Origin: a virus
Length of the DNA: 31,823 nucleotides
IMG/VR virus record: IMGVR_UViG_3300025598_000111
Location: 1-31,823 of that record
Reading direction: 5' to 3' (one strand)
This document shows positions 9,276-31,823 of this stretch, in pieces. The translations under genes were made by a program, and so were the position numbers. How positions within the stretch are numbered: position 1 is the stretch's first letter; every line of letters starts with the position of its first letter. Below the pieces are notes generated by a model. It did no database searches. It was not told where the DNA came from and worked only from the letters and a program-made list of their open reading frames with translations.

Positions 9276-10469
9276 TTAACCCTGTGTAATAGTGATGTTT
9301 GCGCTAGTCGCTGAAATTGTGAAATAGCTTTCAGGGTCACCAGAAATCAAACCTGTTCCCGATGCAGGAGGTACGACTGTTCCATTAATGGATACAGTAA
9401 AAACCATTCTTGATAAGGTTTGAGGAGGAACAATACTTGCAATCGCGGTTTGAAAAACAGTTTGTAATTCAAATAAATTAATTGGCTGACCCACATAAAT
9501 GCTATTGATATAAGCGGCTAAAGCGGGAATTCCAAGTTGGGCAACGGCAGTTGGGGAAACGTAATTTAATGAATTAGTATTCCAAGTCAAAGCTATAGTA
9601 ACGGCTTGTGCAGGAGGATTAACGTAAGTAATGGTATAGGAATCAGGGTAATCATAAATGGTAACCGTTTCATTCCTAGCTGTTGTGCTTGATCCAACTA
9701 ATATAGAAATGTCAGGGATAGAATTAAAGATAGCACCGGCTACTTGGTAGGGATCACCACCACCACAAATGACTTCCCATTGATTTGTGGAAACTTCTCT
9801 TACGGCAACTAATCTTGGCTGAACACCACTAACATTACCAAGTTGAGTTTTAATCAAAGTTGGCATACCTGTTGCCGTAGCCAAACCTGCTTGAATAACT
9901 TGAGCTTGATAAGACTGAAGGCTTTGAGCTGTAGCACCGGCAAGACCGGCATTAGGGTTTGTCACAGTTAAGGTAAACCCTGTAGCAACAGATGTTACCA
10001 ATTGAGTGACAGTATTGGCAGGAACGGCCCAAGAACCGGCTGTGGTTGCCAAACAATAGAGACTTGCACTTTGACCAGACGATCCAATGATGCCGCCATC
10101 TTGTACTGTGTATTGATGCGTTCCGTCAGAAACTGTAAATCCTACTGGAATTACATAACCTGCCAAACCACTAAAAACAACATAAACAGAAGTATTAGAA
10201 CCAACACCTTGCTGAACTCCATAAACCGCCCCCAGTTGATACAAAATAAAAGCGTTAGCAGTATATGGGCTAATGCTATTGACCAAATCAACAAATGTTT
10301 GATCTTGAATGACTACAGCTCCTGCGGCTGTTGAAGCCAAATCTTCAATCAAAGAGCCAGGTAAATTAGCAGTAAGTCCGGGAGATAAAGCTGTTGCCGC
10401 CGCTATTTCTTGATTCAATAGGGCAGTTGGGCTTGTAGGGATTGCTCCTGCGGTAGTTAAGGTAGGCAT
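9276..10469 (-). CDS. Baseplate J-like protein (gp47-like wedge)
   Basis: The 397-residue protein shows the J-like signature in order: LPGSLIEDLASTAAGAVVIQ near residues 36-55, FILYQLGAVYGVQQGVGSN, then the beta domain with VFSGLAGYVIPVGFTVSDGT and SWAVPANTVTQL, and SLQSYQAQVIQAGLATATGM where relatives have the E-S-D-x-x-Y/R segment. The C-terminal part PTAVAQLGIPALAAYINSIY is also typical. GGAG precedes the ATG. It forms the wedge with the gp25-like and tail protein I-like neighbours. Confidence 0.85.
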   Translation of the reverse strand: MPTLTTAGAIPTSPTALLNQEIAAATALSPGLTANLPGSLIEDLASTAAGAVVIQDQTFVDLVNSISPYTANAFILYQLGAVYGVQQGVGSNTSVYVVFSGLAGYVIPVGFTVSDGTHQYTVQDGGIIGSSGQSASLYCLATTAGSWAVPANTVTQLVTSVATGFTLTVTNPNAGLAGATAQSLQSYQAQVIQAGLATATGMPTLIKTQLGNVSGVQPRLVAVREVSTNQWEVICGGGDPYQVAGAIFNSIPDISILVGSSTTARNETVTIYDYPDSYTITYVNPPAQAVTIALTWNTNSLNYVSPTAVAQLGIPALAAYINSIYVGQPINLFELQTVFQTAIASIVPPQTLSRMVFTVSINGTVVPPASGTGLISGDPESYFTISATSANITITQG

Positions 10470-10481
10470 TGGATAACTCCG

Positions 10482-10805
10482 TTATGTTGCAACTGTTGTT
10501 TGAATTGTAGTGCCATTTTGCAAAACTGCACTAATTGCGTATGTGGGCTGAGGGGTTGTGCTCTGACTTGTAATGGCCAAACTAGCAAAATATGGAGCAT
10601 ATTGATTTTGCGTATTGTTAACCGCTAAGTTAGGAGCAATTTGATTGATTACAGATTGTTGAGCAGGTATGCCGTAGTTACCGTAAAAAGGGCTTTCACC
10701 TAAATTCAATCTCAAAGTTTGAGCCACGGTAGCCAAGTAAATATAGCTTGTGTCTGTAATAGTTGTCCATTTTCCTGTTTTGGGATCTATTCCATAACTT
10801 CTCAT
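10482..10805 (-). CDS. Baseplate wedge protein, gp25-like
   Basis: The 107-residue protein includes YIYLATVAQTLRLNLGESPF (23-42), YGNYGIPAQQSVINQIAPNL and YAPYFASLAITS. The LRLNLGESPFYGNYGIP core is typical of gp25/gpW-type wedge proteins of simple myoviruses (the LGE...G...G pattern). It starts within the spike stop (4-nt overlap) and is followed by the J-like protein, the conserved order spike, gp25, J. Confidence 0.7.
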   Translation of the reverse strand: MRSYGIDPKTGKWTTITDTSYIYLATVAQTLRLNLGESPFYGNYGIPAQQSVINQIAPNLAVNNTQNQYAPYFASLAITSQSTTPQPTYAISAVLQNGTTIQTTVAT

Positions 10806-11416
10806 ACAACACCCCCAGAATTAGCGCTACCCACTTGAACATTTTTGTGCTCGTGAGCCAAAAAGTTTCTGCCGTTAATAGTTACGTTTGTTCCATTAAT
10901 GGTTACATTGCCACCAGTTAATGTAATACTTGCCGAACCTTGAGCCAAAGATATTTCGGTAGGAGTGATTGTAACAACAGCGCCACTTGCGGTGTCTCTT
11001 AAAACAACTCCATTTGGTCCATAAATTGTGACTGCGTTAGCATCAACAGAAGACCAATTTTTATTGCCAATAGGTACAAATACCAATCCGCCAAGATTGC
11101 TTGGTTCTTCAAGGGGAGCTAGACCAGACCCCAAGCCGGAAACGCCACCAAGTACGGTATCTGCTGAAATGCAAAATCCCTTGTCTCCAACTTGAATAGG
11201 AAGTCGAATATATTCACTTCCGATAACTGGACAAGTGACTTGTGGAATTGTAAGAACACCACCAGTATCAACATCAAAAGCAACAGTTACTATAGCTCCA
11301 GAGACGGCAACAATGTGACATGGATATTTTTGTCCTTGTCTTTGTTGATTATCCGCAATCTTGCCTTCAGCAAAATTGTTAATGGATATTGCAAATGGTA
11401 GTTTTTGTGAAATCAT
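10802..11416 (-). CDS. Baseplate central spike (gp45/gpV-like) with HxH tip
   Basis: The 204-residue protein has an N-terminal OB-type domain (IVAVSGAIVTVAFDVDTGGV, then LPIQVGDKGFCISADTVLGG), followed by a triple-stranded beta-helix made of Thr/Val/Ile repeats (SASITLTGGNVTINGTNVTI). It ends RNFLAHEHKNVQVG then SANSGGVV. The HEH histidines match the metal-binding apex of membrane-piercing spikes, where three chains bind iron. The short length suits a simple baseplate without a separate PAAR tip, and none is seen nearby. Confidence 0.82.
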   Translation of the reverse strand: MISQKLPFAISINNFAEGKIADNQQRQGQKYPCHIVAVSGAIVTVAFDVDTGGVLTIPQVTCPVIGSEYIRLPIQVGDKGFCISADTVLGGVSGLGSGLAPLEEPSNLGGLVFVPIGNKNWSSVDANAVTIYGPNGVVLRDTASGAVVTITPTEISLAQGSASITLTGGNVTINGTNVTINGRNFLAHEHKNVQVGSANSGGVV

Positions 11417-12399
11417 GGCATCACCGGTATTGTGCAGTCAACAATAGTACACCAACTGTTTGCATCTGCTTGACGGCTATTTCCAACATGACGAATATTT
11501 AAAATTTGAAACACACCTTGAAAAGCAATATTGTTTCTGTTTTGACCAAAAGTTGCGGGACTATTGGTTATTGGAGATCCTTTTGGAAAAACAATTTTAT
11601 CCATGATATTTAAATCACCACGCATAACTAATTTGGCTTGAATAGTGCTTACGTCAATCCAAGTCAAATTACCAATAATATCTGTAAATTTTACGTTGAC
11701 AATATTTGTTTCCGCTGTTCCGTCAGTTATAAGAAAACCTTGATTTGTTGATGCAATAGAAGCTCCCAAATAACCAATAGTTTTAATAATTTGTTTGCTT
11801 TTTTTATTTATGTATTTTGAAAATGATGTAATATTGTCATACTGCCACGATTGATCTTGGTTATAAATTAAATTAGAACTAAGAGATCCATAAATAGGCA
11901 CGTTGGGATAAGCTATACCTAAAGATTGCCTAATTGCATTTTCTAATGTTGTACCTGCTTTCCAAGTAAAGCCAAAATTAACTTCATCAATAGGCGATAC
12001 ATAAGTTAATCCAACAATTACAAAATTTAAATTAACTTCTGTTCCTTGCCAGTTTCCAAAACATTGCAATATTGTTCCGTCTATAATTTCACCGGCTTGT
12101 TTGGGGTCAGCAAAAGGCAATCCTTTTGACATACCAACTGATATTTGTATGCGAGCATTGTTGTAATTTGCTGATTGATTCAAATCTTCAAAAGAAACAC
12201 CATGAACTGTTAACAAACCATTTTGAGACGGTTGATGATATAAATTTTGAAATATGTCTAAGTCAACCCTAAGAGCCGATCCATTGTCTATTCTGTTTTG
12301 ATAATTTTGACTGTTGTTAGCTAAAGACGAAAACGTAACAGGCACAAATTGAATTGTGCTTTGACTTGATGGGCTAATGGTTATGCTGTAATAACGCAT
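11413..12399 (-). CDS. Baseplate hub protein (gp27/gpD-like)
   Basis: The 328-residue protein shows LRVDLDIFQNLYHQPSQNGL, TVHGVSFEDLNQSANYNNAR and KAGTTLENAIRQSLGIAYPN, a pattern of hub proteins whose domains form the ring holding the spike. The C-terminal GVFQILNIRHVGNSRQAD, with CTIVDCTIPVMP, is also typical. It overlaps the spike gene by 4 nt (ATGA), and hub-spike adjacency is conserved in Mu- and Pam3-type baseplates. Confidence 0.75.
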   Translation of the reverse strand: MRYYSITISPSSQSTIQFVPVTFSSLANNSQNYQNRIDNGSALRVDLDIFQNLYHQPSQNGLLTVHGVSFEDLNQSANYNNARIQISVGMSKGLPFADPKQAGEIIDGTILQCFGNWQGTEVNLNFVIVGLTYVSPIDEVNFGFTWKAGTTLENAIRQSLGIAYPNVPIYGSLSSNLIYNQDQSWQYDNITSFSKYINKKSKQIIKTIGYLGASIASTNQGFLITDGTAETNIVNVKFTDIIGNLTWIDVSTIQAKLVMRGDLNIMDKIVFPKGSPITNSPATFGQNRNNIAFQGVFQILNIRHVGNSRQADANSWCTIVDCTIPVMP

Positions 12400-12668
12400 T
12401 ATGGAGTAATGATAAAACTCTTATTACTCACTCGATAAACCATTGTTGAAGTTGTAAAATATCCAAACAATAAATTAATATCTGAGTCATCAGGTGAGCC
12501 AATAATAGGACGAGTAACAATCAAATTGCCAAAAGTATCATAGATAGAAAAGAAATATCTTGATCCTGCGGCATTCCATGTGCAAATACAAACATAAGTA
12601 ACCCCATCTAAAACAGGATTAAATTGAAAATTTGCTAACGGTGATGGGTTAAAAAGAATGGTAGTCAT
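12399..12668 (-). CDS. Baseplate plug-like protein (DUF6983-like)
   Basis: The 89-residue protein (LANFQFNPVLDGVTYVCICT, then WNAAGSRYFFSIYDTFGNLI and SDINLLFGYFTTSTMVYRVS) has the size and beta pattern of the small plug proteins encoded ahead of the hub in simple myovirus baseplates. The NAAGSRYFFSIYD run is the most characteristic part. It is linked to both neighbours by one-base TAATG overlaps. Family assignment is from memory of the pattern, so moderate. Confidence 0.6.
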   Translation of the reverse strand: MTTILFNPSPLANFQFNPVLDGVTYVCICTWNAAGSRYFFSIYDTFGNLIVTRPIIGSPDDSDINLLFGYFTTSTMVYRVSNKSFIITP

Positions 12669-13303
12669 TATTCATACCATCCTAATTTGTAATTTGGTGC
12701 GGTACTGTTCCAACTTAATGCTGTTGGTGTGGGTAATCCATTTTGGAATTTATTCATTAAATTGCCCAAAACTTGTTGTGCGCCCTGTTGCGTTATCAAT
12801 GGTTGCGTAAAATCCCATTGATATAAAAATTGCACTTGTTTATCACTTGATGTGCTTACGTCACGAATACTAGTCAACAAGCAATTTGTGTAAGTATATG
12901 CAGGTGTTAAAACTGTAAATGTACCGCCTGTCAAAATGTGTGTATCCAATTGACTTTTTAGTGCAGTAAAAATTGAATTTTTGATTGTGTACCCACCATT
13001 GTTTTGAGCCGGTGCTATCATCACCAAGCTAATTTTCAAAGGCATTTGTATCACAGCATTAGCCGCCATTGTTAGGCTTGCAAAAGGATATTCAGCGATT
13101 TGCCAATCCTCAAGACTACCGCCTGACATAACTCTATACTCGGCAAAATATTGTCCGGTACTGCTGAATGAATTGCTCAATTGTTCTGTTAAATTAACAA
13201 TAGGCAAAATATTGTTTGGATAATTTGCGGCTATCCCATTATTTAAAATAATAGGTGAAACCTCATAATTGTATGAAAAATTAGCTTGTGCAGAATTTAA
13301 CAT
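12668..13303 (-). CDS. Baseplate / tube-initiator region protein
   Basis: The 211-residue protein begins MLNSAQANFSYNYEVSPIIL and includes SLEDWQIAEYPFASLTMAAN (63-82), ISLVMIAPAQNNGGYTIKN, and QVQFLYQWDFTQPLITQQGA. Similar sequences lie after the tape measure in Bcep781-like and related myoviruses. By position it should cap the tube at the baseplate, like the tube initiator of Pam3 or a gp48/gp54-type protein. The exact match to those families is inference. TAATG junctions join it to both neighbours. Confidence 0.62.
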   Translation of the reverse strand: MLNSAQANFSYNYEVSPIILNNGIAANYPNNILPIVNLTEQLSNSFSSTGQYFAEYRVMSGGSLEDWQIAEYPFASLTMAANAVIQMPLKISLVMIAPAQNNGGYTIKNSIFTALKSQLDTHILTGGTFTVLTPAYTYTNCLLTSIRDVSTSSDKQVQFLYQWDFTQPLITQQGAQQVLGNLMNKFQNGLPTPTALSWNSTAPNYKLGWYE

Positions 13304-14847
13304 TATGAACCTTTATTGGCATTTGGTAGACTTGCCGCAGATGCAACAGCATTTCCACCTGTGTTATTGGTAATCATAACTTTAATTTCATTGGCTGAAT
13401 ATTTAGATTTCCCGCTTTCGACTTTAGAAATTACCGCCAACAATGAAGACAAAACATTTGGATCTTGTAAATTTAAATGTTCAGTTGCCTTACGTCCAGT
13501 TTGTTGCTCAACAGCTTTAATATAGGCTTTTGTGTCGTTTTCATTTTTAGGCGCATAAAGACTAATGATGTCTTGAATGGTGTCTAATTTTTTGTATCCT
13601 GCTGCTTTTGATTTTCCAGTTGCGTACAGAGTTAACTGTTCTGCCAAGGCTTTAAAACCTTCTCTGTCAGATGCAAATTTTGCAAAACCACCTTCACCTT
13701 GGGTTGCTCCTGCTTGTCCAACATAGCGCAAATTTCCGGGGTTAAAATTTCTTTCAGCTAAAGATTCACCACCAAAAAACTGTCTTACAGCTCCCTTGGT
13801 GCGTTCCCATTTTTGAGTACCTTCTTTTTCTTCCTTGGTTTGTGTTAACCCAAAGAATCCGGTAATGTTTTCAATAATGGTAGCCATGCCTTTTAAAGCA
13901 TCTAGAAAATATGTAATATCCTCTTTTAATTCATCAACTTTTAAATTAGTTAAAAAATCTTTAACCATTTCACCAACAGCTTCAGAGAATTCAATTAATT
14001 TAGGAATTAATGGTTCTAAAGTTTTTATTAGCGATGTTTCCAATACTTGACCAACTTTTTTCAATTGAACTAGAAAATCTTGCCATTCACGATTAACGGC
14101 ATCAGTTGTTTCTAGTTCTTTTGCATCTTGTTGATTTTTGGCAATGGCTTGATTTAATTCATCTTCTTTTAGTTCAGATAAACGCCTTAAATCTTGAATG
14201 TTAAATATTTCCGTTAATCCTGTTGCTTTTGCATAATTTTCAGTCTGCCCTCCAGCTCTAAATTGCTTAACAGCATTGCGAATAATATTAGGCAATAAAT
14301 CAACAGGATTTTGTCCGGCACTACCGCCAAGTCTGCCAATCAATGATTGACGAGCCAAGTCACTTTTGACATCAGCAATATTTGACAATACTTGTGTTGG
14401 ATCAAAATAACGACCAAAGTTTGTTTCTGTAGCTCTTAGTTGACCAGTAGAAACGCCCAAACCCTGCGCTTGCCTTCTGTAATCACTAGCACTACCTGCA
14501 ACTCCTGCCAAGCCAAAACCGCCACCAATAGCGCCCAATGTAGCCCATTTAGCGATGGATACTGCGCCACTAGCAAGATTGCGAGCAATGTTGGCTGTTG
14601 TATAACTTAATTCTTTAAAAACAACTAAATTGTCTTTTGATATTTTTTCAAAGTTTTTTAGTTGAGTGACTAGATCTTTAACGCCCTTGATTTGAGCGTC
14701 TACCTGTTTGGTCATTTTTTGTGACCAAGGCAAAGGGTCTATTTTCTTTAAACTTTCAACGGACGATCTAAATTTGGCAAAGTCTTTCGCAAACGCTTGA
14801 AACTTTTCATCTAATACATCTATTTCAATAACTGATTTGGTTGCCAT
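13303..14847 (-). CDS. Tape measure protein with lysozyme-like C-terminal domain
   Basis: The 514-residue protein follows the chaperones. Residues 10-90 and 225-330 are long charged helices, a hydrophobic glycine-rich stretch lies at about 95-120 (WATLGAIGGGFGLAGVAGSA), and residues 363-478 form a peptidoglycan-hydrolase-like domain: ERNFNPGNLRYVGQAGA, FAKFASDREGFKALAEQL, then TIQDIISLYAPKNENDTKAY. That NPGNLRY...F..GF..L pattern is seen in virion lysozyme-type domains. It would set tail length and locally open the cell wall during injection. At roughly 1.5 angstrom per residue it implies a short tail, well under 100 nm. The stop shares one base with the next ATG (TAATG). Confidence 0.82.
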   Translation of the reverse strand: MATKSVIEIDVLDEKFQAFAKDFAKFRSSVESLKKIDPLPWSQKMTKQVDAQIKGVKDLVTQLKNFEKISKDNLVVFKELSYTTANIARNLASGAVSIAKWATLGAIGGGFGLAGVAGSASDYRRQAQGLGVSTGQLRATETNFGRYFDPTQVLSNIADVKSDLARQSLIGRLGGSAGQNPVDLLPNIIRNAVKQFRAGGQTENYAKATGLTEIFNIQDLRRLSELKEDELNQAIAKNQQDAKELETTDAVNREWQDFLVQLKKVGQVLETSLIKTLEPLIPKLIEFSEAVGEMVKDFLTNLKVDELKEDITYFLDALKGMATIIENITGFFGLTQTKEEKEGTQKWERTKGAVRQFFGGESLAERNFNPGNLRYVGQAGATQGEGGFAKFASDREGFKALAEQLTLYATGKSKAAGYKKLDTIQDIISLYAPKNENDTKAYIKAVEQQTGRKATEHLNLQDPNVLSSLLAVISKVESGKSKYSANEIKVMITNNTGGNAVASAASLPNANKGS

Positions 14848-14856
14848 TATTTACTC

Positions 14857-15111
14857 TTAGAAGATTGATTTTTTTTCAATTGCTTGGATTAAATGCCTTT
14901 GACGATAATGTTGTGCATCTACCCATTTACCGCCATTTTCTTTTATGAACTCATAAAAACCTTCATTGCTTAAATAGTCTAGGATATAAGCGATGATTCC
15001 GTTACTTTCTTTCCAGTAACATCTGTTTTGGTCAATGTCGGCAAACCAGTTTGATACGCCATACAGTCCAAGGATGTAACTACCCAATGCCGTAAATTCC
15101 CCGCCATTTCT
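14857..15111 (-). CDS. Tail assembly chaperone C-terminal extension, made by -1 frameshift
   Basis: After a -1 slip at codon 151 of the upstream gene, the new frame is open for 84 residues: RNGGEFTALGSYILGLYGVS, then NWFADIDQNRCYWKESNGII, ending HLIQAIEKKSIF. The full fusion would be 235 residues. No ATG or ribosome site exists for this frame (its first candidate is a TTG without Shine-Dalgarno), which argues for frameshifting rather than separate initiation. This matches the lambda G/GT arrangement conserved across tailed phages. It ends 9 nt before the tape measure start. Confidence 0.82.
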   Translation of the reverse strand, partial: RNGGEFTALGSYILGLYGVSNWFADIDQNRCYWKESNGIIAYILDYLSNEGFYEFIKENGGKWVDAQHYRQRHLIQAIEKKSIF

Positions 15112-15563
15112 AAAAAAGAAACTCTGAAGTCCCTTGGAGCGACCTTGGATATTGCAGTAAAAAAAACGAGAGAACTCATCACCTCCGCTTCTTCATCTTC
15201 ATCAATGATTCCACGTTTGATTGCCAAATCAAATGGCAAAGTTTCCCATCCATTTTCACCGCAATAAATGACATTAGTTAATCTAATGATTTCATTGATT
15301 AAACCAAATTTAACTCCACTTGGGCCGTCCCATGTGCCAGACTGAGTTGCAATTGATTTCAATGAGGGATAAGCAAGCCTTGGTGCGGATAAGGCAACAT
15401 GGCTTGGATTATCACTTTCAAAACATTGACTAAAGACTTTTCCAAGCTCTAGATAAAATTGTTCAAAAATCTCACGACTAACAGCGGTTGAGTGAATGTG
15501 TACTGTTCCGTAGTCTGTCGTTTGAATTTGCACCACTAAATTCAAATTTTTGTTAATTTTCAA
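14979..15563 (-). CDS. Tail assembly chaperone, short form
   Basis: The 194-residue protein lies between tube and tape measure, the fixed place for the tail assembly chaperones that coat the tape measure during assembly. It starts at a TTG, supported by GCAGGAG 8-9 nt ahead and by tight packing after the tube stop; no ATG is available there. Notable segments are REIFEQFYLELGKVFSQCF, GPSGVKFGLINEIIRLTNVI and a conserved-looking KVAPRDFRVSFLEMAGNLRH. At codons 149-151 the frame reads TCT TTT TTA, forming the U UUU UUA slip heptamer. Ribosomes that do not slip make this form. Confidence 0.82.
   Translation of the reverse strand: MKINKNLNLVVQIQTTDYGTVHIHSTAVSREIFEQFYLELGKVFSQCFESDNPSHVALSAPRLAYPSLKSIATQSGTWDGPSGVKFGLINEIIRLTNVIYCGENGWETLPFDLAIKRGIIDEDEEAEVMSSLVFFTAISKVAPRDFRVSFLEMAGNLRHWVVTSLDCMAYQTGLPTLTKTDVTGKKVTESSLIS
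15111..15117 (-). promoter_or_regulatory. Programmed -1 frameshift heptamer U UUU UUA
   Basis: The minus strand reads TTTTTTA here, and in the zero frame its codons are (TC)T TTT TTA, exactly the X XXY YYZ pattern. U UUU UUA is a known efficient slip site. The -1 frame has no stop between this point and the end of the extension at 14857. Both P-site Phe and A-site Leu tRNAs can re-pair after the slip. Confidence 0.85.
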
Positions 15564-15565
15564 AT

Positions 15566-16012
15566 CTATGCTCCTGCGGCAAATAACTCAGCATTAATAG
15601 AATAAACACCACGCAAGCGAACAACTAAACCGGCTTGTGTTCCATCAAAAGCAACTTCTTGAATGCTTTGTAAAACACAGTTGTTCAGTTGGAATGGAGA
15701 TAAAGTAACTGTATCGGGATAAATCGTAACTGATCCCAATGTAGTGTTTAACTCAATTTGTTGCTTGTATGCGTTAGCCAATGCTTGTGTTCTGACCAAA
15801 TGCATTGTGACTGTTCCATAAATATATGGTTCAGGGCTTGTGACCGCACCAGTTAAGGTGTTAATTAGCAATGCAGTATCACCATCAAATGCCAAGCTAA
15901 TCGCTTCTTTAGAAAGATACGATGCTGTAACATTTAAGTTTTGATAGTCAGCATAAAACACACTAGCAAGTAGTCTGTTTAACGTGCCTTGTACAACTTG
16001 TGGATTTGCCAT
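15566..16012 (-). CDS. Tail tube protein
   Basis: The 148-residue protein begins ANPQVVQGTLNRLLASVFYA and continues ASYLSKEAISLAFDGDTALL, TGAVTSPEPYIYGTVTMHLV and a final VRLRGVYSINAELFAAGA. This resembles tube proteins of Bcep781-like myoviruses, which stack as hexameric rings inside the sheath. The size, order (sheath, tube, chaperones, tape measure) and strong AAGGAG site agree. Its TAG stop is 2 nt before the TTG start of the chaperone gene. Confidence 0.85.
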   Translation of the reverse strand: MANPQVVQGTLNRLLASVFYADYQNLNVTASYLSKEAISLAFDGDTALLINTLTGAVTSPEPYIYGTVTMHLVRTQALANAYKQQIELNTTLGSVTIYPDTVTLSPFQLNNCVLQSIQEVAFDGTQAGLVVRLRGVYSINAELFAAGA

Positions 16013-16022
16013 TCTTTACTCC

Positions 16023-17342
16023 TTATGTTGGGATATTACTTGCTGTCAAGTAAATAGTGATTGAGGAGAATCCACGTTGGGGGACAAACGTCAAACTCAA
16101 TCCCTTGTAAATACCTGCGGCATAATCGCTAGGATTCTGTGTCACATAAGTATTGAATGGAATTGCACCAACAGACGCAGGACTTAAAATCAATCCAAAA
16201 GCAATACCATTGTTTGTAGTCGCTTGAGCAACTTTTTGCAATGCATTGATACCGGCTTGATTGTAGTAAAGCGGATTAGTGGATGAATTACTTCCATTAA
16301 TAATAGCGGCAGATAAGCTAATAGCAACATTAATTGCAAGCCAATCAACTGCATACCAATAATTGAATGTGTTCAAATCCATGAACGTACCACCCTCAAT
16401 CAGCGTATTGCTGATTTGACCTTGAGAACCTGTGTAAATGTAATTTACACCTGCGGCAAGTAAAGCGGTTTGTTGAGTATTTGTTAATGTGCTGTATGAA
16501 GTCACACCATAGACAAAACTATATTCAAGAGGATTTGCCAAGTTACTTGCGCTAGGGTTGTAACTTAATGTAGTCCAGAAAATAGCGGCGGCATCAAATT
16601 CAGTAACTGGTGCAGTTGGCGTTTGAAGCGTTGCAAGAACTGATTTAATACCTGCCCATGTTGTATAAGTTGCAAGTGTTGTTGTGACATAAAAATATGT
16701 CTGAGCCGTTGTGCTTGTGTACTGATTAGCCATTGCGACGGCTGTTGATTCAGTATTCCAAGTTTGTGGCAACAAGTAACTGTAAAACTTAAATGTGGAT
16801 GAAGTAATAAATGCTTCTAAAGCTGTCACACCTTGAGCAGGTGTTCCTACTCCAAGCTCTAGTACATACACCGGAGTTGTAGAACCTTGAGCAAAAAACG
16901 TAGTGCCCATTGCCAAAAGCTCTTGAGTATCTTCCAAAGAAAACGTACTGCTTGCAACAACAGTTGCCGTTCCGGGATTAGACGCAAGAGCATAAGTTAA
17001 TGTATACGTTCCAGTTGAAGTAATTGTGTATGTTCCGTTATAAGCATTTGCTGTGCTACCGGAAACCAAAACACCTGAAATAATACCTTGCAGTATGTCA
17101 CCTGTTGGGATGCCATGTGCTGTGGTAGTTGTAACGGTTACAACAGAGGATGCCCAAGTAATACTACTAATTGCATTAGCTGATTTTAAGATTGTGGTCA
17201 AATCAGATAATTGAGTTAGCAGTTGATAAGTACCTGCCGCCAAGGTTGTTGCACCTTGAGATACAAAAGCACCTGTTTGTTGCAACTTTGATGGCGCACT
17301 TGCCACCTGTTGCTTAACAATGACATTTACGATATTGGGCAT
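16023..17342 (-). CDS. Contractile tail sheath protein (DUF3383-like)
   Basis: This 439-residue protein is the contractile sheath. N-terminal IVNVIVKQQVASAPSKLQQT and AFVSQGATTLAAGTYQLLT match the DUF3383 sheath family, as do the central FYVTTTLATYTTWAGIKSVL, the YNPSASNLANPLEYSFVYGV block, and the C-terminal FVPQRGFSSITIYLTAS. Residues about 57-130 look like an inserted beta domain (TTAHGIPTGD ... NAYNGTYTITSTGTYTLTYA), a module found in unrelated phage proteins and likely exposed on the sheath surface. AGGAGG precedes the ATG, giving strong translation, and the tube gene follows 10 nt on. It establishes a myovirus. Confidence 0.88.
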   Translation of the reverse strand: MPNIVNVIVKQQVASAPSKLQQTGAFVSQGATTLAAGTYQLLTQLSDLTTILKSANAISSITWASSVVTVTTTTAHGIPTGDILQGIISGVLVSGSTANAYNGTYTITSTGTYTLTYALASNPGTATVVASSTFSLEDTQELLAMGTTFFAQGSTTPVYVLELGVGTPAQGVTALEAFITSSTFKFYSYLLPQTWNTESTAVAMANQYTSTTAQTYFYVTTTLATYTTWAGIKSVLATLQTPTAPVTEFDAAAIFWTTLSYNPSASNLANPLEYSFVYGVTSYSTLTNTQQTALLAAGVNYIYTGSQGQISNTLIEGGTFMDLNTFNYWYAVDWLAINVAISLSAAIINGSNSSTNPLYYNQAGINALQKVAQATTNNGIAFGLILSPASVGAIPFNTYVTQNPSDYAAGIYKGLSLTFVPQRGFSSITIYLTASNIPT

Positions 17343-22212: not shown

Positions 22213-23064
22213 TTAGCGTTGATTGTTAGCGGTGTGAAACTGAGTAGCTCTCATTGGAGGTACTTTGAAGTCATCAAGCCAAGCACTCATAGAACCACGG
22301 TATTTAGTGATTGTACGACCGCTAGAGTCTCTTGATTGAATAGCAATCAATTGATCGCCAGAAACATGACTAGATGTTTTTGCGGCAGTCATTGCGTCGT
22401 TGATAATTTGTTTTTCAGCTAAGTCAAGCAATTTAGCATCTTTGATTGATGCCAAATTAATGTCTTTGAAGCTGTCGGAATAGGCTTGAAGACCACGCAA
22501 CAGACGTTTACGATAAGCCATCAAACTTTCACCTTGTAATGGGCGTGAAGCTGATTTACCAAAAGCGGCTAAAACTGAATCACACTTAGCTTGCATATCT
22601 GCATACTCAGCGGCTTCTTCGTCTTTTTTCATAGCCATTTCGTCATCATCGTCCATTTTGGCATCGTCATCATCAGGTTTTATTTCGCCTGCTGGTCCAT
22701 GCTCAACAGGATTTGAACCCATGTAATCTTTACGTTTCATGGAATCGTCATCATCTTTACGATGTCTTTTCATATCATCGTCGTCATCTTTCATTTCCAT
22801 TTCATCGTCATCTTTGCGCTTTTTATCAGCTTTTTTCATAACGTGCTTGGGAGATTCCATATTTTTTTCTTCCAAGTCTTCATCGTCCATGCGCATATCG
22901 TCATCGTCTTTGCGCTTTTTGTCAGCGGCAGTAACGAGTGGAGGTGCGGGAAGGTTTTTTTCCATCTCATCAACTCTCACGCTAATGCTATTGAGAGCCG
23001 AAAGAATGGCATCTAGTTTATCGCCTTGAGCATCTGCTTTCGGCTCTACTTTATTTTCTGACAT
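22213..23064 (-). CDS. Probable nested scaffold protein, internal start
   Basis: An in-frame ATG at codon 422 of the large protein is preceded by GAGG with an 8-nt spacer, which is a better ribosome site than the one at the gene's own start. It falls exactly at the boundary between the protease domain and the acidic, lysine-rich scaffold part. The product would be 283 residues, starting MSENKVEPKADAQ. Nested protease/scaffold genes are established in other phages (lambda C/Nu3 is the classic case), where extra scaffold is made without protease. That this start is used here is inference from site quality and position. Confidence 0.6.
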   Translation of the reverse strand: MSENKVEPKADAQGDKLDAILSALNSISVRVDEMEKNLPAPPLVTAADKKRKDDDDMRMDDEDLEEKNMESPKHVMKKADKKRKDDDEMEMKDDDDDMKRHRKDDDDSMKRKDYMGSNPVEHGPAGEIKPDDDDAKMDDDDEMAMKKDEEAAEYADMQAKCDSVLAAFGKSASRPLQGESLMAYRKRLLRGLQAYSDSFKDINLASIKDAKLLDLAEKQIINDAMTAAKTSSHVSGDQLIAIQSRDSSGRTITKYRGSMSAWLDDFKVPPMRATQFHTANNQR

Positions 23065-24327
23065 ATCAGATACCTCATTGTTAGTTAATAAAACGCCTTT
23101 GGGTTCGCCACCCTTGTCCCATACTCCTTTAGAACCTCTAGCTTCAGTAACGATAGCTATATGATCTAAAAGAAATGGTACACCTTCGATTAAGAGTGGC
23201 TCTCCATTCTCAGTCGTAAGTGTAGTGTTGCCTGCCGTTTGGTCAAAAACGACAGATGGGCTAGTGCTAACTTCTTGCGATAAGATTGTATTGACTGCAT
23301 CTTGATCGTAAATTTTAGCAATACCCCAAACCTCATCACCTTTGATATAAGGCAGAATAATACTTCCAACTGCCCTATCTTTAAATTCTTTAGAGGTTAA
23401 AACTGCTGACTCAGGATGATCCATCACAACAATTAAACCGTTACATCTTTTCAAAAACTCATCGTTTAAGTAAATACTAGAATCACGCCAAACGTGTTCT
23501 CCTATACTTGAACGATATGCTAAACCTGTTCCAGTTATTCTAATCGCCAATAACATGACGTTAGCATACATTTGAGGACTTGGCAATAAATCACATTTAA
23601 CTAATTCAGCATAGTCGAATTCTGTTTTAGCTAAAGCAATTTTAAACGCTACATCAAGACCTGGGTGTAATGGCAATGGAGGACGATCAGGACTGCACCA
23701 ATCGTAGCCAGTAGATTCGTAATTAAGAACAACATTTTCTTTTTTAATGTTTTTTGCAACATAAGTGCAAAACTGACCATCGTCGTGAAGTACTTCTAAA
23801 GGACCTTTGTAATCAATTCCAGTTTCTTCTTTACATTCTCGTCGTGCGGCTTCTTCAAGTGTTTCTCCATTTGGCAATTGATGTCCGCCCGGAACACACC
23901 ATGTATTTGGAAAATCGCCACCACCTGATCCTCTGCGAATCAATAGTGTTTCGCCTTCTGGTGTAAGAAACATAATTCCTGAAGCTCTACCAAATGGACC
24001 ACCTTGATTGTCGATTGGCATTGCATCTGATTTGATTTCACCAAATCTAGGTACTACTTCGTCGGCTTTTAAACCAACAATTGATCTACTTAATTCTGCT
24101 AATTTAGCAGACAATCCTTGTAGTTCTTTTTGAACTGAAGCACTATCCCAATCAGGTTCACTACTATCAGTTTTTTCAATAGGCAAAGCTAGTAATGATG
24201 GTGCTTCTAATGTATCTTGAGTAAATTCTTTGCCAACAGATTGCGGTATTCCTACTTTTTTAGCGAAAGCAGGATTGTGAGCCACAGCTCGCATTAGCTT
24301 CTCTTGTTTTTCAGATACTGCTGGCAT
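22213..24327 (-). CDS. Fused Nudix hydrolase / DUF2213 prohead protease / scaffold
   Basis: This 704-residue protein holds four parts. Residues 1-38 carry a short conserved phage leader (AVAHNPAFAKKVGIPQSVGK). Residues 110-245 are a Nudix hydrolase fold with the box at 147-171; E155, R163, E164, E167, E168 and G170 fit the consensus, with one extra residue between the Gly and first Glu. Residues 265-415 resemble the DUF2213 prohead protease: IGEHVWRDSSIYL, VMDHPESAV with His304, VSTSPSVVF with candidate Ser354/356/358, LLDHIAIV with His389, and ARGSKGVWD. Residues 422-704 are scaffold-like, with KKRKDDDD-type charge repeats at 468-570 and a helical C-terminal part. The protease should cleave scaffold and perhaps capsid protein; Nudix substrate is unknown. 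No clear Shine-Dalgarno precedes the start. Confidence 0.85.
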   Translation of the reverse strand: MPAVSEKQEKLMRAVAHNPAFAKKVGIPQSVGKEFTQDTLEAPSLLALPIEKTDSSEPDWDSASVQKELQGLSAKLAELSRSIVGLKADEVVPRFGEIKSDAMPIDNQGGPFGRASGIMFLTPEGETLLIRRGSGGGDFPNTWCVPGGHQLPNGETLEEAARRECKEETGIDYKGPLEVLHDDGQFCTYVAKNIKKENVVLNYESTGYDWCSPDRPPLPLHPGLDVAFKIALAKTEFDYAELVKCDLLPSPQMYANVMLLAIRITGTGLAYRSSIGEHVWRDSSIYLNDEFLKRCNGLIVVMDHPESAVLTSKEFKDRAVGSIILPYIKGDEVWGIAKIYDQDAVNTILSQEVSTSPSVVFDQTAGNTTLTTENGEPLLIEGVPFLLDHIAIVTEARGSKGVWDKGGEPKGVLLTNNEVSDMSENKVEPKADAQGDKLDAILSALNSISVRVDEMEKNLPAPPLVTAADKKRKDDDDMRMDDEDLEEKNMESPKHVMKKADKKRKDDDEMEMKDDDDDMKRHRKDDDDSMKRKDYMGSNPVEHGPAGEIKPDDDDAKMDDDDEMAMKKDEEAAEYADMQAKCDSVLAAFGKSASRPLQGESLMAYRKRLLRGLQAYSDSFKDINLASIKDAKLLDLAEKQIINDAMTAAKTSSHVSGDQLIAIQSRDSSGRTITKYRGSMSAWLDDFKVPPMRATQFHTANNQR
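22739..22960 (-). repeat. KKRKDDDD-type charge repeat in scaffold
   Basis: Within the scaffold part the segment ADKKRKDDD occurs at residues 468-476 and again at 500-508, with a looser RHRKDDDD copy at 521-528. At DNA level the copies share the run tttgcgctttttntcagc near 22814 and 22908. Alternating lysine/arginine and aspartate blocks suggest a flexible polyampholyte segment in the core-forming scaffold. Confidence 0.6.
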
Positions 24328-26842: not shown

Positions 26843-28132
26843 TTAGAAACCATACTTATCACCAACACCAATAGCTATTCCATAAGTAAAGCAGTCTAAC
26901 AAATCATCAGCTCTTTTGTAAGCATCTTTGTCACCAATTTTAAAATTAGTTACTTGAACAAGTAAATGATTTCTTGTTGTGTTTTTGAATGTTACTACTT
27001 TGTCAAAAGCATATTGACTGATTTTAACCTTTTCCTGATGAAAATGACCAGACACACTAATTGCTCTTTCATCTTTTCCAACTGAAGTTAATTTTGAATC
27101 AATAGGATGAGTATTCCAACCTCTTGTTCGTCCTTGTTGTAATAGTATAGCTCCTGTACTTGCATCTTCAATAAACAATCCAACATCACCATGTCTGGCT
27201 TGAGTCAACTTTGCAAGTTCTTCTAACCGCATAAACACATTTGGAATATAGGCTTCAAGTAAAGCACCATCTATTTGTAATACATCGTAATCTAATATTA
27301 CCAATGGATGACCATAATACTTATTAAGACCAAAGTAAACTACAGCAGTACCATCGTGATCTTGACCACCTTTGATTGCTGTGTCCATAACTGCAAACAC
27401 CCCTGTAACTTTCTCAGGATAAGGTACTGGCAATCCATTTACCAATAGTTTATCAATAGAGAAAAATGCTTGGCCTGCCCAATCTACAAATTCAGCTAAA
27501 TACTCTTGTTTGTAAACTAATGGATGGTTTTCTTTTTCAAGTTTTGCTAATTCTTCTTGAGGAAGATAAGGGTTTGCATGGGTTGGAGCATGATGGTCAA
27601 TAAACCCTAATGAAGAATCTTCACCAATACGATAAAAAAAGTTTTCTTCATCTATTCCATTTGGTGTACTTAAAACCCAACAATCTCCACCGTAATCAAG
27701 CAAAGTAGGCTTAATACTTGTATTCCAAATGTGAAGCATATTGGATTTTGTAAATGCCGCTTCGTCAATGATAACTCTATGATATTTTCTACTTCGACCT
27801 GCTCTATCGTTTTCTAACGTCCAAAAGTCTACTCTACCACCACCTTCAACATTAAAAATGCCATCGATCTTACTAGCTGATGTTTTTACTTCGTGAAGCA
27901 TATCAGCAATTTCGTTATAGGCTTCAGCAAGAATCTTGTATTGAGGAACAAACCAACCTACTCGTTTACCTTCTACTGCATATTCACAAGCAAGCATTTC
28001 AGCCATTAATGTTTTGCCATATCTTCGTCCACAACGTACTCTATTGAACCTACCAGCGTTGTTAAATATTCTCCATTGATCTGCATGAGGTATTGGCAAA
28101 TCAACCATTGTGGATGTTTCTAGATCATGCAT
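26843..28132 (-). CDS. Terminase large subunit (ATPase-nuclease)
   Basis: This is the DNA-packaging motor. The ATPase part shows a Walker A-like CGRRYGKT near residue 35, a GWFVPQYKILAEAY segment, and Walker B YHRVIIDEAAF. The nuclease part has VFAVMDTAIKGGQDHDGTAV with the first acidic residue of an RNase H-like site, VGLFIEDAS in the middle and DDLLDCFTYGIAIG near the C terminus. A GTG 15 nt upstream (28147) is also in frame, but I prefer the ATG at 28132: it overlaps the small-subunit stop by 8 nt and has AGAGGTGG about 11 nt ahead, while the GTG has its purines directly abutting. Length (429 residues) is typical. Confidence 0.93.
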   Translation of the reverse strand: MHDLETSTMVDLPIPHADQWRIFNNAGRFNRVRCGRRYGKTLMAEMLACEYAVEGKRVGWFVPQYKILAEAYNEIADMLHEVKTSASKIDGIFNVEGGGRVDFWTLENDRAGRSRKYHRVIIDEAAFTKSNMLHIWNTSIKPTLLDYGGDCWVLSTPNGIDEENFFYRIGEDSSLGFIDHHAPTHANPYLPQEELAKLEKENHPLVYKQEYLAEFVDWAGQAFFSIDKLLVNGLPVPYPEKVTGVFAVMDTAIKGGQDHDGTAVVYFGLNKYYGHPLVILDYDVLQIDGALLEAYIPNVFMRLEELAKLTQARHGDVGLFIEDASTGAILLQQGRTRGWNTHPIDSKLTSVGKDERAISVSGHFHQEKVKISQYAFDKVVTFKNTTRNHLLVQVTNFKIGDKDAYKRADDLLDCFTYGIAIGVGDKYGF

Positions 28133-28481
28133 CTTTGTTAAACCCACCTCTGATTACAATTACTTTCTTACCATCTATGTTTGATTCATCATGGTTTTCT
28201 CTCCAACGACCTTGAGTCTTTAAAAAGAAAAACATTGAAGCATTGTCACCATTTCGAGCTTTGTTGAATAAACTTTGAGCAATCGTAGCAATAGCATCAG
28301 CCTTACCCAAGTCTTGTTCTCGTCTGTAATATTCATTAAGAGTAGGCACACTTATGTCTAGCTTGTCTGCTATTTGCTTTTGTGTAAGACCTACTCCTGA
28401 TAATGCTTTGACAAGTTTTCTACTTGCTTCAGATGGTACATGAGCTGGTCTACCTCGAGTTTCGACTTTTTCTTCTTCCAT
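28125..28481 (-). CDS. Terminase small subunit (HTH)
   Basis: The 118-residue protein has a charged N terminus (RGRPAHVPSE), a helix-turn-helix around residues 31-52 (GLTQKQIADKLDISVPTLNEYY) and a conserved DNA-packaging style block at 60-95 (AIATIAQSLFNKARNGDNAS, then MFFFLKTQGRW). This arrangement is common in small terminase proteins that bind the packaging site and hand DNA to the large subunit. It overlaps the large terminase, which supports the role. The sequence ahead of the ATG at 28481 is very AT-rich with no strong Shine-Dalgarno match. A general phage HTH regulator is the main alternative, but the position argues against it. Confidence 0.8.
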   Translation of the reverse strand: MEEEKVETRGRPAHVPSEASRKLVKALSGVGLTQKQIADKLDISVPTLNEYYRREQDLGKADAIATIAQSLFNKARNGDNASMFFFLKTQGRWRENHDESNIDGKKVIVIRGGFNKDA

Positions 28482-28512: not shown

Positions 28513-29175
28513 TCATCGAATACTCATGTATTTGTGTGTTTGTAAAGAAATTTTCCATCCATTTAAAATTGCTTGGTCTATACACAATTTCGTAGCTGAT
28601 TTACTTTGACTGATTGGTTGTAACCAAATAGTTTGATTAGCAGAAGTATTAGGGATTATTTTTAATTTTAGTTTATTAATGTCTGCTAACTTTCCTACTG
28701 GGAATTTGATCTCATTCACTCGTTTGAAGTTATCCAAATATACTTCAGTTCCTCCAGCCATGTCTAGTTTAGGGCTTAATGTAATAAATGAATCTTTGTG
28801 TGCTTTGATTTCTTTAATTCCAGCAGTTTCGATTTGTACTGTTCTATTAGAATTGATAATTGCAGTAGTAAGTCCAGTTAGATCATAGATAGATGGTTCT
28901 CCTCCAGTAATCACAATATGTTTTGCTTTGTAGGTTTTCAACAACAACATTATTTCTTCAACAGACATTTTTGAATACGTATCTTCATCTTCTGTCTTTT
29001 TGACCATATTAATGATAGGGATTAATTTATTGGTCATGTGCCAAGTATGTTTTGTATCACACCAATGACAACCTACAGGACAACCTTGCAGTCTAATAAA
29101 TACTGATGGTGTTCCGGTAAAACTTGCTTCACCTTGAATTGTTTCAAATATTTCGTTAATTGGATATTCGTTCAT
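28513..29175 (-). CDS. queE: 7-carboxy-7-deazaguanine synthase (QueE), radical SAM
   Basis: QueE rearranges CPH4 to 7-carboxy-7-deazaguanine using a 4Fe-4S cluster and S-adenosylmethionine. The 220-residue protein starts with the family's NEIFETIQGEASFTGTPSVF block, followed by the cluster motif GCPVGCHWCDTKHTW (Cys32, Cys36, Cys39), VITGGEPSIYD for SAM binding, and LQTHKYMSIR at the C terminus. Length matches bacterial QueE. It begins with a 4-nt overlap with queD and is the last gene of the modification block. The next gene, the small terminase, starts 31 nt on with no hairpin between, so modification and packaging genes may share a transcript. Confidence 0.93.
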   Translation of the reverse strand: MNEYPINEIFETIQGEASFTGTPSVFIRLQGCPVGCHWCDTKHTWHMTNKLIPIINMVKKTEDEDTYSKMSVEEIMLLLKTYKAKHIVITGGEPSIYDLTGLTTAIINSNRTVQIETAGIKEIKAHKDSFITLSPKLDMAGGTEVYLDNFKRVNEIKFPVGKLADINKLKLKIIPNTSANQTIWLQPISQSKSATKLCIDQAILNGWKISLQTHKYMSIR

Positions 29176-29627
29176 TTAGATGGTCCTGTATAAATAGCTG
29201 AATTAGCTCCATGTTCAAATACTTCAACTGAAACCAATCTAACTCTTGGTTTATAAAAGTTTTCTTTTAACCATTGATTAGTCATGTCATAAGCTATCTC
29301 AGCAAACTTTTCACAACCATTGTCAGGAACAATCACCAAATCTAATACTCCAAGCTCTTGACCTTGTTTAAAGTAATCTAAATGCGGATCGTCTACTGCT
29401 ACAACTACTTTATGATCGAACATATTTTCAATTTGAGCTTTTAAAGTTTTAAGACCTCCAAAGTCAACTACCCAATTACGTTCGTCTAATACATCTGACT
29501 CAAATGTTAATTTAAAGCCTAAAGCATATCCATGAATTTTTTGGCAATGAGAATGTGCTTTCCATTGTCTAAAGGCGGCAGAGATACCTATATGGTTTCC
29601 ATAAGTCTTAGTTGATTGATAACTCAT
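29172..29627 (-). CDS. queD: 6-carboxy-5,6,7,8-tetrahydropterin synthase (QueD)
   Basis: QueD makes 6-carboxy-tetrahydropterin (CPH4) from dihydroneopterin triphosphate. The 151 residues include KAHSHCQKIHGYALGF with Cys28 and His32 (the usual HGH is HGY here), NWVVDFGGLK (51-60), FDHKVVV (70-76), GCEKFAEIA (104-112) and VEVFEHGANSAIY with Glu138. The DFGGLK, FDHK and EHG blocks are diagnostic of the PTPS/QueD family. The start ATG shares four bases with the FolE stop and is preceded by GAGG; the stop shares four bases with the QueE start. Coupling to folE and queE supports the same pathway. The variant HGY motif is probably a subfamily trait, since other zinc-ligand candidates (His25, His27, His32) are present. 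Confidence 0.9.
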   Translation of the reverse strand: MSYQSTKTYGNHIGISAAFRQWKAHSHCQKIHGYALGFKLTFESDVLDERNWVVDFGGLKTLKAQIENMFDHKVVVAVDDPHLDYFKQGQELGVLDLVIVPDNGCEKFAEIAYDMTNQWLKENFYKPRVRLVSVEVFEHGANSAIYTGPSK

Positions 29628-30277
29628 TTGACTAACCTCAAGAATTCATTTTTTAAATCTCTATTGTTTTCAAATTGACCTCTCATAACTAATGTAGTCA
29701 TCTTTGTTTCTGTTTCTTTAACTCCACGCCATGTCATACATTGGTGAGTAGCTTCCATTAAGATTGCCAATCCTTTAGGTTCAATCATAGATTCAATAAT
29801 GTCTGCAAGTTGAACAGTTGATTCTTCTTGTATTTGTGGTCTAGCCAAGACCCATTCAGCTAACCTTACGAATTTACTAATACCAATTACTTTATCGCTT
29901 GGCAATATACCAATCCAAAGTTTTCCAGTAATAGGTACAAAGTGATGACTACAAGCTGAACGAACAGTTATAGGTCCTAATGTATATATTTCGTTGAGAC
30001 TTTTAGCATTTGGAAAGTCTGTAATGGTAGGCATTTGTTCATATCTACCTTTAAACACTTCACGAACATACATCTTTGCAATACGTTGTGGAGTTTCATA
30101 AGTATTATGATCGTTTTCAGAATCAATTACTAATATATCTAATATTTCTCTAAACTTAACTTCTAATGCTTCTTGAATTGAATCAATATCATTTTTAGAC
30201 AAGTATTGTGAAATGTTATCGTTGGCGAAGTAAGTTCCACCAGCTTTAGTAATTTTGTCAATGATTTTAGTAGACAT
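29624..30277 (-). CDS. folE: GTP cyclohydrolase I (FolE)
   Basis: FolE converts GTP to 7,8-dihydroneopterin triphosphate, the first step towards 7-deazaguanines and folate. The 217-residue protein carries SACSHHFVPITGKLWIG (Cys109, His111, His112), KVIGISKFVRLAEW, then ARPQIQEESTVQLA, and THQCMTWRGV with Cys180. Cys109, His112 and Cys180 match the zinc ligands of bacterial FolE. The frame extends 16 codons further upstream to 30325, but I place the start at 30277 because AAGGA lies just ahead of that ATG and the longer form would overlap the previous gene by 59 nt. Its stop overlaps the queD start by 4 nt (ATGA). With QueD and QueE it forms the pathway to CDG. Confidence 0.93.
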   Translation of the reverse strand: MSTKIIDKITKAGGTYFANDNISQYLSKNDIDSIQEALEVKFREILDILVIDSENDHNTYETPQRIAKMYVREVFKGRYEQMPTITDFPNAKSLNEIYTLGPITVRSACSHHFVPITGKLWIGILPSDKVIGISKFVRLAEWVLARPQIQEESTVQLADIIESMIEPKGLAILMEATHQCMTWRGVKETETKMTTLVMRGQFENNRDLKNEFLRLVK

Positions 30278-30608
30278 TGTATTCCTTAGTAATAGTTGCT
30301 CCACATTCGTTGTCTTCACTAACACTTGCTGTGAATGTTCTATAATACTTAGAAGATAAATCTTCAGAAAGTTTTCGAGCCATCATTTCACAACTCATAT
30401 TGTTCATTTCGCCATCTTTGAAAAATTGTTTTCCTTCATCAATTAGATCGTGAAATTCAATTTCTCGATCATCGTGATCTACAGGACAACGAAGCTCAAC
30501 ATAAAAGTTATGACGATGACGATTTTTTAAATAGTCTCTATGTTCGGTTGCATCTTTCCAATGATGAAATCCTTCAAACGAAAAACGAACAAAAATTTCT
30601 GCTTTCAT
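30267..30608 (-). CDS. Small QueD/PTPS-fold protein without catalytic Cys, in DpdA cluster
   Basis: This 113-residue protein has the zinc-binding layout of the 6-pyruvoyl/6-carboxy-tetrahydropterin synthase fold: FEGFHHW (His15/16), HRHNFYVEL (His31, His33), NNMSCEMMA (69-76) and SEDNECGA with Glu98 near the C terminus. In QueD a catalytic Cys lies a few residues before the HGH motif; here the segment between His16 and His31 contains no Cys, and the other Cys residues (41, 73, 102) are elsewhere. A separate, more usual QueD is encoded two genes on, so this copy is probably not the CPH4-forming enzyme. It may bind a pterin or deazaguanine intermediate or assist DpdA; that role is inference. 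It is joined to DpdA by a 4-nt overlap and to FolE by an 11-nt overlap. Confidence 0.7.
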   Translation of the reverse strand: MKAEIFVRFSFEGFHHWKDATEHRDYLKNRHRHNFYVELRCPVDHDDREIEFHDLIDEGKQFFKDGEMNNMSCEMMARKLSEDLSSKYYRTFTASVSEDNECGATITKEYNVY

Positions 30609-31501
30609 AATGGCATCCTATGGTCAGTTTCTAATACTTTCTCAACTTCTAATATCGACTGTCTCCAGTTAATCAAATCTATTTTGCAATTGTTTGCACA
30701 GATTTGAACAGTTTTTTTATAACTTTTTTCTGGATCGTTTAGATCATAACGGAATACTCTTTCTTCTACAGAATCCCATGCTTTTAAACAAGCTCTTGTT
30801 GGCATATCCATCCATCTAACTGTTGAAATCCAACTAGAAGAATCACAACTGTTTAATGGAAAAGCATTTGAATGTTCATTAGGCGTCATTCCCAAACAAT
30901 GTATCCACAAATTAGGATACTTTCTTTTTCTTTCCCACATTGTTGCTAGTAATCGTTTTCTAGTTTCATTTTGAGCTTGTACAACATTACCTAAACAAAT
31001 GCGATCATATCGTTCAGCCAAGTAATCAAAGTAGTCCCATCCATCTACCAATGGGTGATAAACAGGAATTGGATTAAAGCCTAACTTATGAAGCCGATCT
31101 CTAGTCTTGATTTTGTTATCTTTACCACCTTGATCGATTTCAATATATCCCCAAGCTCTATCTCCAATTTCTTTTACTATTCGAGTGTATTTGTCAAACA
31201 AATTGTCAAAACCATCAATTTCAGTTGGAGACAATGCTAATACTTTGTCCATTGATATGTTATTAGCTCTTGAATGTTGCATTGTTAAATTAAACACTCC
31301 TGAGTCAATAAATACTTTTTTACCTCGACTTACTGCATCAAGAAGAAACTGCTCATCGTCAGCATTATGAATTTCATTGACCGCAGTTAATATATGATCG
31401 TAGTAATCACATACATCTTGTTTGTTAAAATAAGATGGAGAACCTGCTAAAAAATAAACATTTTGTTCTTTGTAATCCCATACGCCACCAGTATTAATCA
31501 T
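30605..31501 (-). CDS. dpdA: DpdA-like 7-deazaguanine DNA transglycosylase (TGT family)
   Basis: The 298-residue protein resembles phage DpdA, a relative of tRNA-guanine transglycosylase that swaps guanine in DNA for a 7-deazaguanine base. Visible motifs in order are FIDSGVF (about 64-70), the barrel strand GYIEIDQGG (118-126), CLGNVVQAQN (169-178), WIHCLGMTP (199-207) and NSCDSSSW (217-224). By analogy with TGT the Asp in the last motif (D220) is the likely nucleophile and D66 the likely base-recognition acid; this is inference. It overlaps the following QueD-like gene by 4 nt (ATGA) and sits at the head of a block with FolE, QueD and QueE, which supports a DNA rather than tRNA target. An archaeosine/queuosine-type tRNA enzyme is less likely because the protein is short and lacks the PUA domain and a clear TGT zinc site. 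Confidence 0.82.
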   Translation of the reverse strand: MINTGGVWDYKEQNVYFLAGSPSYFNKQDVCDYYDHILTAVNEIHNADDEQFLLDAVSRGKKVFIDSGVFNLTMQHSRANNISMDKVLALSPTEIDGFDNLFDKYTRIVKEIGDRAWGYIEIDQGGKDNKIKTRDRLHKLGFNPIPVYHPLVDGWDYFDYLAERYDRICLGNVVQAQNETRKRLLATMWERKRKYPNLWIHCLGMTPNEHSNAFPLNSCDSSSWISTVRWMDMPTRACLKAWDSVEERVFRYDLNDPEKSYKKTVQICANNCKIDLINWRQSILEVEKVLETDHRMPL

Positions 31502-31823
31502 TTGCTTTCCTTACCGAAAGTGTACCGTTAATATCTTGGTAACGATCTATGATAAGTGAAGCAATGTATGTATCTGGCTGAACAATAACCAACTTAAAAT
31601 CTTTTGCTTTTTTAGCTAAAGCAGAATAAATACCAGCATAAGGCAATAACAAACAATCTTCTTGATTTAATTCTTTGATCCACAAAGGCCATTCTCTTAA
31701 AACGTCAGCACAAATTAAAACGTGCTTGTCGCCAAGAATCCATTTATCATGTTTTTCAATTTGATTTCTTGGTTCGTCAATTGAAACATCTAACTTGTCT
31801 AATACACTTTCTTTTTCTACTTG
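31494..31823 (-). CDS. Degenerate DNA methyltransferase-like protein, 5' end outside window
   Basis: The frame is open to the window edge, so at least 109 residues are visible and the true start is missing. Two blocks resemble N4/N6 DNA methyltransferases often fused to ParB-like domains in phages. The first, DKWILGDKHVLICAD, matches the family's W-x-LG-[DE]-H-x-L-x-CGD entry motif. The second, LLPYAGIYSALAKKA followed by VIVQPDTYIASLIIDRY, matches the motif I/C-terminal block DPFxGSGxTLxAA...D-x-x-Y-x-x-x-x-x-R[WY]. The stretch that should lie between them, with the target-recognition region and the DPPY catalytic motif, is reduced to about 16 residues, and the motif I Asp and Gly residues are altered. 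I infer a catalytically dead remnant or a repurposed binding protein. Its stop overlaps the DpdA-like start by 8 nt, so it is translated with the modification island. Confidence 0.55.
   Translation of the reverse strand, partial: QVEKESVLDKLDVSIDEPRNQIEKHDKWILGDKHVLICADVLREWPLWIKELNQEDCLLLPYAGIYSALAKKAKDFKLVIVQPDTYIASLIIDRYQDINGTLSVRKAND

Follow-up and report, generated by a model that had tools for sequence, protein, structure and literature searches.

The stretch of DNA analysed here (the window) is a complete IMG/VR record of 31,823 bp. Toward its right end lies a minus-strand operon encoding FolE, QueD, QueE and a DpdA-type transglycosylase, with genes that overlap or almost touch (Table 1). 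Read from the right end of the window on the minus strand, the order is the end of a ParB-domain gene, DpdA, a 113-aa gene, FolE, QueD, QueE, the small and large terminase subunits, and the portal. The operon stops at the terminase small subunit gene, and the structural genes come next. The listed GTG start of FolE overlaps the preceding gene, and its real start may lie further downstream. Elsewhere in the window, the presence of tail sheath and baseplate genes points to a phage with a contractile tail, and one large open reading frame joins a Nudix-like stretch to a following head-maturation-protease-like stretch. A DNA-level search for the packaging genes among annotated phages returned no match.

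Table 1. Features of the window, with the matches on which each assignment is based
Feature	Position	Strand	Match
ParB_N-domain gene, 3' part	31494..31823	-	ParB_N 2e-7 in the complete 246-aa relative (contig L004, 6375-7115)
DpdA-type guanine transglycosylase, 298 aa	30605..31501	-	phrog_887 4e-26
113-aa QueD-fold protein, no QueD catalytic triad	30267..30608	-	phrog_17812 1e-18
FolE, GTP cyclohydrolase I	29624..30325	-	Pfam PF01227 1e-47
QueD, 6-carboxytetrahydropterin synthase	29172..29627	-	Pfam PTPS 1e-17; phrog_2389 9e-42
QueE, 7-carboxy-7-deazaguanine (CDG) synthase, radical SAM	28513..29175	-	NCBIfam TIGR04322, 263.8 bits (cut-off 200)
Operon, QueE to DpdA	28513..31501	-	
Terminase small subunit	28125..28481	-	phrog_12540 1e-14; phrog_309 3e-11
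704-aa protein, Nudix-like and head-maturation-protease-like	22213..24327		phrog_1198; phrog_2229
Tail sheath and baseplate genes	9276..17342		

FolE, QueD and QueE make up the complete precursor gene set of DpdA-based phage 7-deazaguanine DNA modification. A first-pass annotation of this DNA had described a CDG-making modification operon without QueC, and this description holds: all four named genes are present on the minus strand by profile matches, and no QueC was found in the window record. Its gene list, correct for these four, had passed over the 113-aa gene between dpdA and folE as well as the ParB-domain gene that is cut off by the window end. The first-pass annotation had also envisaged a queC or other finishing gene just beyond that end. 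Six viral contigs overlapping the cluster were fetched, the longest of which (43,137 bp, completeness not established) is 98.8% identical over the cluster. In this contig the cut-off gene is completed as a 246-aa ParB_N protein next to dpdA, and upstream of it lie unrelated replication and recombination genes, including, by inspection, those for an ERF-like recombination protein and a DUF932-like protein. A search of all 43,137 bp found no QueC. Its location just beyond the window is rejected, and the contigs that extend further show that truncation of the record does not account for the missing gene. The candidate for a finishing gene lies instead inside the window, as the 113-aa gene.

According to its AlphaFold model (mean pLDDT 96), the 113-aa protein adopts the QueD fold, the best PDB match being E. 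coli QueD (4ntk; E 2e-6, TM 0.73-0.79). It scores below the Pfam PTPS cut-off (15.6 against 22.4 bits), while a profile comparison of its family with QueD gives E = 2e-8, and the single match in a PDB sequence search is a QueD/PTPS homologue (E = 0.026). Across 72 aligned members from viral contigs, His15, His31, His33, Arg48, Glu51, Ser72-Cys73-Glu74, and Glu98-Asp99 are invariant. In a HMMER alignment, His15, His31 and His33 fall on the zinc histidines of QueD, and Glu98 on its substrate-anchoring glutamate. The protein thus shares fold, zinc ligands and anchoring residue with the QueD/6-pyruvoyl-tetrahydropterin synthase family (PF01242), but the QueD catalytic Cys and Asp-His dyad are absent from all 72 members, with an invariant Leu in place of the Cys and a deletion of the loop that holds Asp-His. 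Judged by these losses, it is a QueD-fold protein that is unable to carry out the QueD reaction in the usual way. Zinc histidines and an anchoring Glu kept in the absence of the catalytic residues fit the binding of a guanine-like ligand together with a different chemistry.

The family is a single continuous set by sequence. When viral contigs were searched with the degenerate motif H[DN]DR[ED]IEF, 120/120 of the stretches fetched proved to be members of this small family. One contig (L199) encodes an in-frame fusion of DpdA with the small domain. In Chryseobacterium phage MA9V-3 (L020, 5461-6339), the small domain follows an endonuclease VII-like domain in one protein, and in Vibrio phage Bakedbeans (L025, 5122-6270) it is fused to a preceding domain of some 260 aa with no assigned identity. 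In the large phages L013, L015, L017 and L019, a glycosyltransferase-like gene is found close to the small gene, which suggests a sugar-decorated 7-deazaguanine.

The distribution of the small gene mirrors that of queC. A search of viral contigs with the DpdA family of the window yielded 72 loci, 61 of which have the small gene only and five queC only; none has both, where an overlap of 4.2 would be expected (hypergeometric P 3e-5, a value that ignores the kinship of the loci). The QueC identity of the five proteins is borne out by Pfam, and whole-contig searches confirm the exclusion in both directions. The two genes also share a position: the slot directly downstream of dpdA holds the small gene in 63 of 67 cases and queC in 6 of 6. 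Beyond this set, full-length QueC was not found in 41 other small-gene records, though 33 of them have full-length QueE, while eight annotated phages fetched for their QueE all match QueC (seven extensively, one partially) and lack the small gene. The single exception is Vibrio phage D479, where the small gene coexists with a QueC-like paralogue at another place in the genome. On the DpdA tree, the small-gene and QueC states switch between two times (counting well-supported branches) and five times, and a sign test over the five switches gives p = 0.5; this phylogenetic test is weak because the switches are so few. QueF was also considered as a finisher. No QueF exceeded the cut-off in nine small-gene contigs, ACP17 or phiST, one contig having a partial match below it; phi38:2 and immuto, both of which carry QueC, do have QueF. 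Replacement of QueC by the small gene in the operon is well supported by these gene distributions, and its presence in the QueC slot in the great majority of the loci speaks for an enzyme that shares the substrate of QueC. The earlier proposal that the visible genes either end at CDG or depend on host QueC is accordingly not sustained, as a conserved fifth operon gene takes the place of QueC.

Dependence on the host was examined through related prophages that carry the small gene, found in Streptomyces, Kitasatospora, Amycolatopsis, Pseudonocardia, Haloactinopolyspora, and Bradyrhizobium. If host QueC turned CDG into preQ0, DpdA would insert the latter to give dPreQ0. Some hosts could supply the enzyme, as the Bradyrhizobium host has a true QueC and so does a gammaproteobacterial MAG host. 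However, QueC was not found in nine actinobacterial host genomes, which returned only short partial PP-loop matches inside frames of 540-970 aa, and completion to preQ0 by the host therefore cannot explain the family. It also leaves the mutual exclusion of QueC and the small gene unaccounted for, and is very unlikely as the route taken here. To judge from these genomes, the small-gene family is independent of host QueC.

The DpdA of the window retains the catalytic Asp residues of TGT/DpdA enzymes. Asp66 (in DSG), His149, and Asp220 (in CDSSSW) are invariant over 42 relatives, and the conserved Asp, His, and Asp are shared with the DpdA proteins of CAjan and VpKK5. Its AlphaFold model is a TIM barrel with TGT among the PDB matches; in a sequence search of the PDB, only SarX was matched, and was set aside as chance. 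A conserved histidine marks DpdA1 and is missing from DpdA2 (PMC6884629). His149 falls on this histidine, aligned with its equivalents in CAjan and VpKK5; these two proteins, at 23-25% identity, lie on a long branch outside the DpdA family of the window. A ParB-domain gene overlaps dpdA or lies directly upstream of it in 69 of the 78 loci of this family, among them loci with QueC and loci with the small gene. The C-terminal half of the ParB-domain protein is conserved and resembles a DNA methyltransferase remnant that lacks the DPPY motif. Bacterial DpdA operates together with a partner, DpdB; the ParB-domain protein may play the corresponding part here, and the conserved pairing suggests that a DNA-handling protein assists this branch of DpdA. 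Several operons (L217-L220 from Streptomyces and Kitasatospora, also L182 and L185) have two tandem dpdA genes with one small gene. For the ParB-dpdA pairing, as for the type of QueD described below, no published description was found in the limited literature covered.

The QueD of the window is unusual in its zinc site. It keeps Cys28, Asp71-His72, and Glu138, but two of the three zinc histidines are replaced (AAF, HGY). The small protein has all three, and a residue table over the relatives finds this zinc-poor QueD solely alongside the small gene. Both observations would suit a heteromeric CPH4 synthase, in which the small protein joins the zinc-poor QueD as a subunit and makes good its defective zinc site, the base being dCDG or host-made dPreQ0. 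On the other hand, the small gene accompanies a fully canonical QueD in most loci of the DpdA family and occurs in phages where no QueD was detected in its vicinity; mixed sites would still fall short of a complete Cys and zinc set, and the exclusion of QueC would go unexplained. Chiefly on account of the canonical QueD found beside the small gene, a split-active-site QueD is very unlikely as the function of the family.

A pathway can be proposed from this gene content. FolE, QueD and QueE would convert GTP to CDG, which the small QueD-fold zinc protein would hold through its retained Glu and zinc site. It would then most likely strip the carboxyl group to give 7-deazaguanine, and DpdA, probably aided by the adjacent ParB-domain protein, would exchange part of the guanine in DNA for this base. 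The probable reading is that the small protein takes CDG as its substrate in the place of QueC, most likely decarboxylating it, and that DpdA inserts 7-deazaguanine. Reportedly, a CDG decarboxylase named DpdL has been predicted and 7-deazaguanine itself (dDG) has been found in phage DNA; to our knowledge, the DpdL decarboxylase is predicted yet unproven. The small gene co-occurs with CDG-making genes and DpdA, without QueC, as would be expected of DpdL, and its product is probably a DpdL-type CDG decarboxylase. The predicted product thus shifts towards 7-deazaguanine, given a QueC-replacing gene in the operon whose relatives reside in nine actinobacterial hosts without QueC. We infer that the resulting dDG would protect the phage DNA against restriction.

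Two other end products have to be weighed. DpdA might insert CDG itself, with the small protein as a carrier or activator. FolE, QueD, QueE and DpdA suffice for this base, dCDG is reportedly a known phage base, and the DpdA-small fusion is also compatible with a role in delivery; yet a gene sitting exactly in the QueC slot in 61 of the 72 loci speaks against it, and with this conserved replacement in the operon, charged CDG ranks below 7-deazaguanine as the end product. We consider dCDG unlikely. Nor is decarboxylation the only chemistry conceivable. The glycosyltransferase gene beside the small gene in several large phages is a counterpoint that hints at further or different chemistry, and it is about equally unlikely that the small protein converts CDG by a non-decarboxylating reaction to an undescribed 7-deazaguanine, in large phages perhaps a sugar acceptor. 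The invariant Cys73-Glu74 and Glu98-Asp99, with the zinc triad, would permit other reactions, and glycosyltransferase-like genes adjoin the small gene in ACP17, X1, BUCT-ZZ01, and Phosso. However, no gene of this kind stands next to it in the operons of the window and its close relatives, and the small family is one continuous sequence set. More broadly, and only tentatively, a family of QueD-fold phage enzymes may have repeatedly replaced QueC beside DpdA and make a different, possibly undescribed 7-deazaguanine, inserted by a two-component ParB-DpdA machine distinct from 9g-type DpdA; as a whole, this scenario is unlikely.

The type of 7-deazaguanine in phage DNA decides which restriction enzymes are escaped. 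The swaps between QueC and the small gene allow the base to be predicted from the genome by a simple rule, and offer a direct route to testing the predicted CDG decarboxylase.

Among known systems, the Enterobacteria phage 9g/Seuratvirus type shares FolE, QueD, QueE and DpdA, together with the conserved Asp, His, and Asp of the latter. These phages pair DpdA1 with QueC or Gat-QueC and carry dG+ or dPreQ0 (PMC6884629). They differ from the window in having QueC and lacking the small gene, and phage-encoded QueC, the mark of the preQ0/G+ branch, was not found in the window or in related contigs of 43 kb. In CAjan and VpKK5, unlike in most loci of the family of the window, the gene directly upstream of dpdA does not encode a ParB protein. 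A parallel in layout is Mycobacterium phage Quesadilla (NC_051584), whose ParB-TGT-QueC-QueD-QueE-FolE-TerS-TerL cluster has the same layout and genome position as the operon described here, with ParB followed by DpdA and then the finishing gene; it differs in having QueC in the slot of the small gene, and the shared DpdA stretch is approximately 33% identical. The phages of the DpdL/dDG type are alike in that their operon makes CDG, has DpdA, and lacks QueC, although the DpdA of the window is only 23-25% identical to the 9g type and its gene is accompanied by one for a ParB-domain protein. Cellulophaga phages are said to be among those studied for such bases. The small gene is found in Cellulophaga phiST, phi19:2, and phi13:1, as well as in Acidovorax ACP17, whereas phi38:2 lacks it and encodes QueC and QueF instead.
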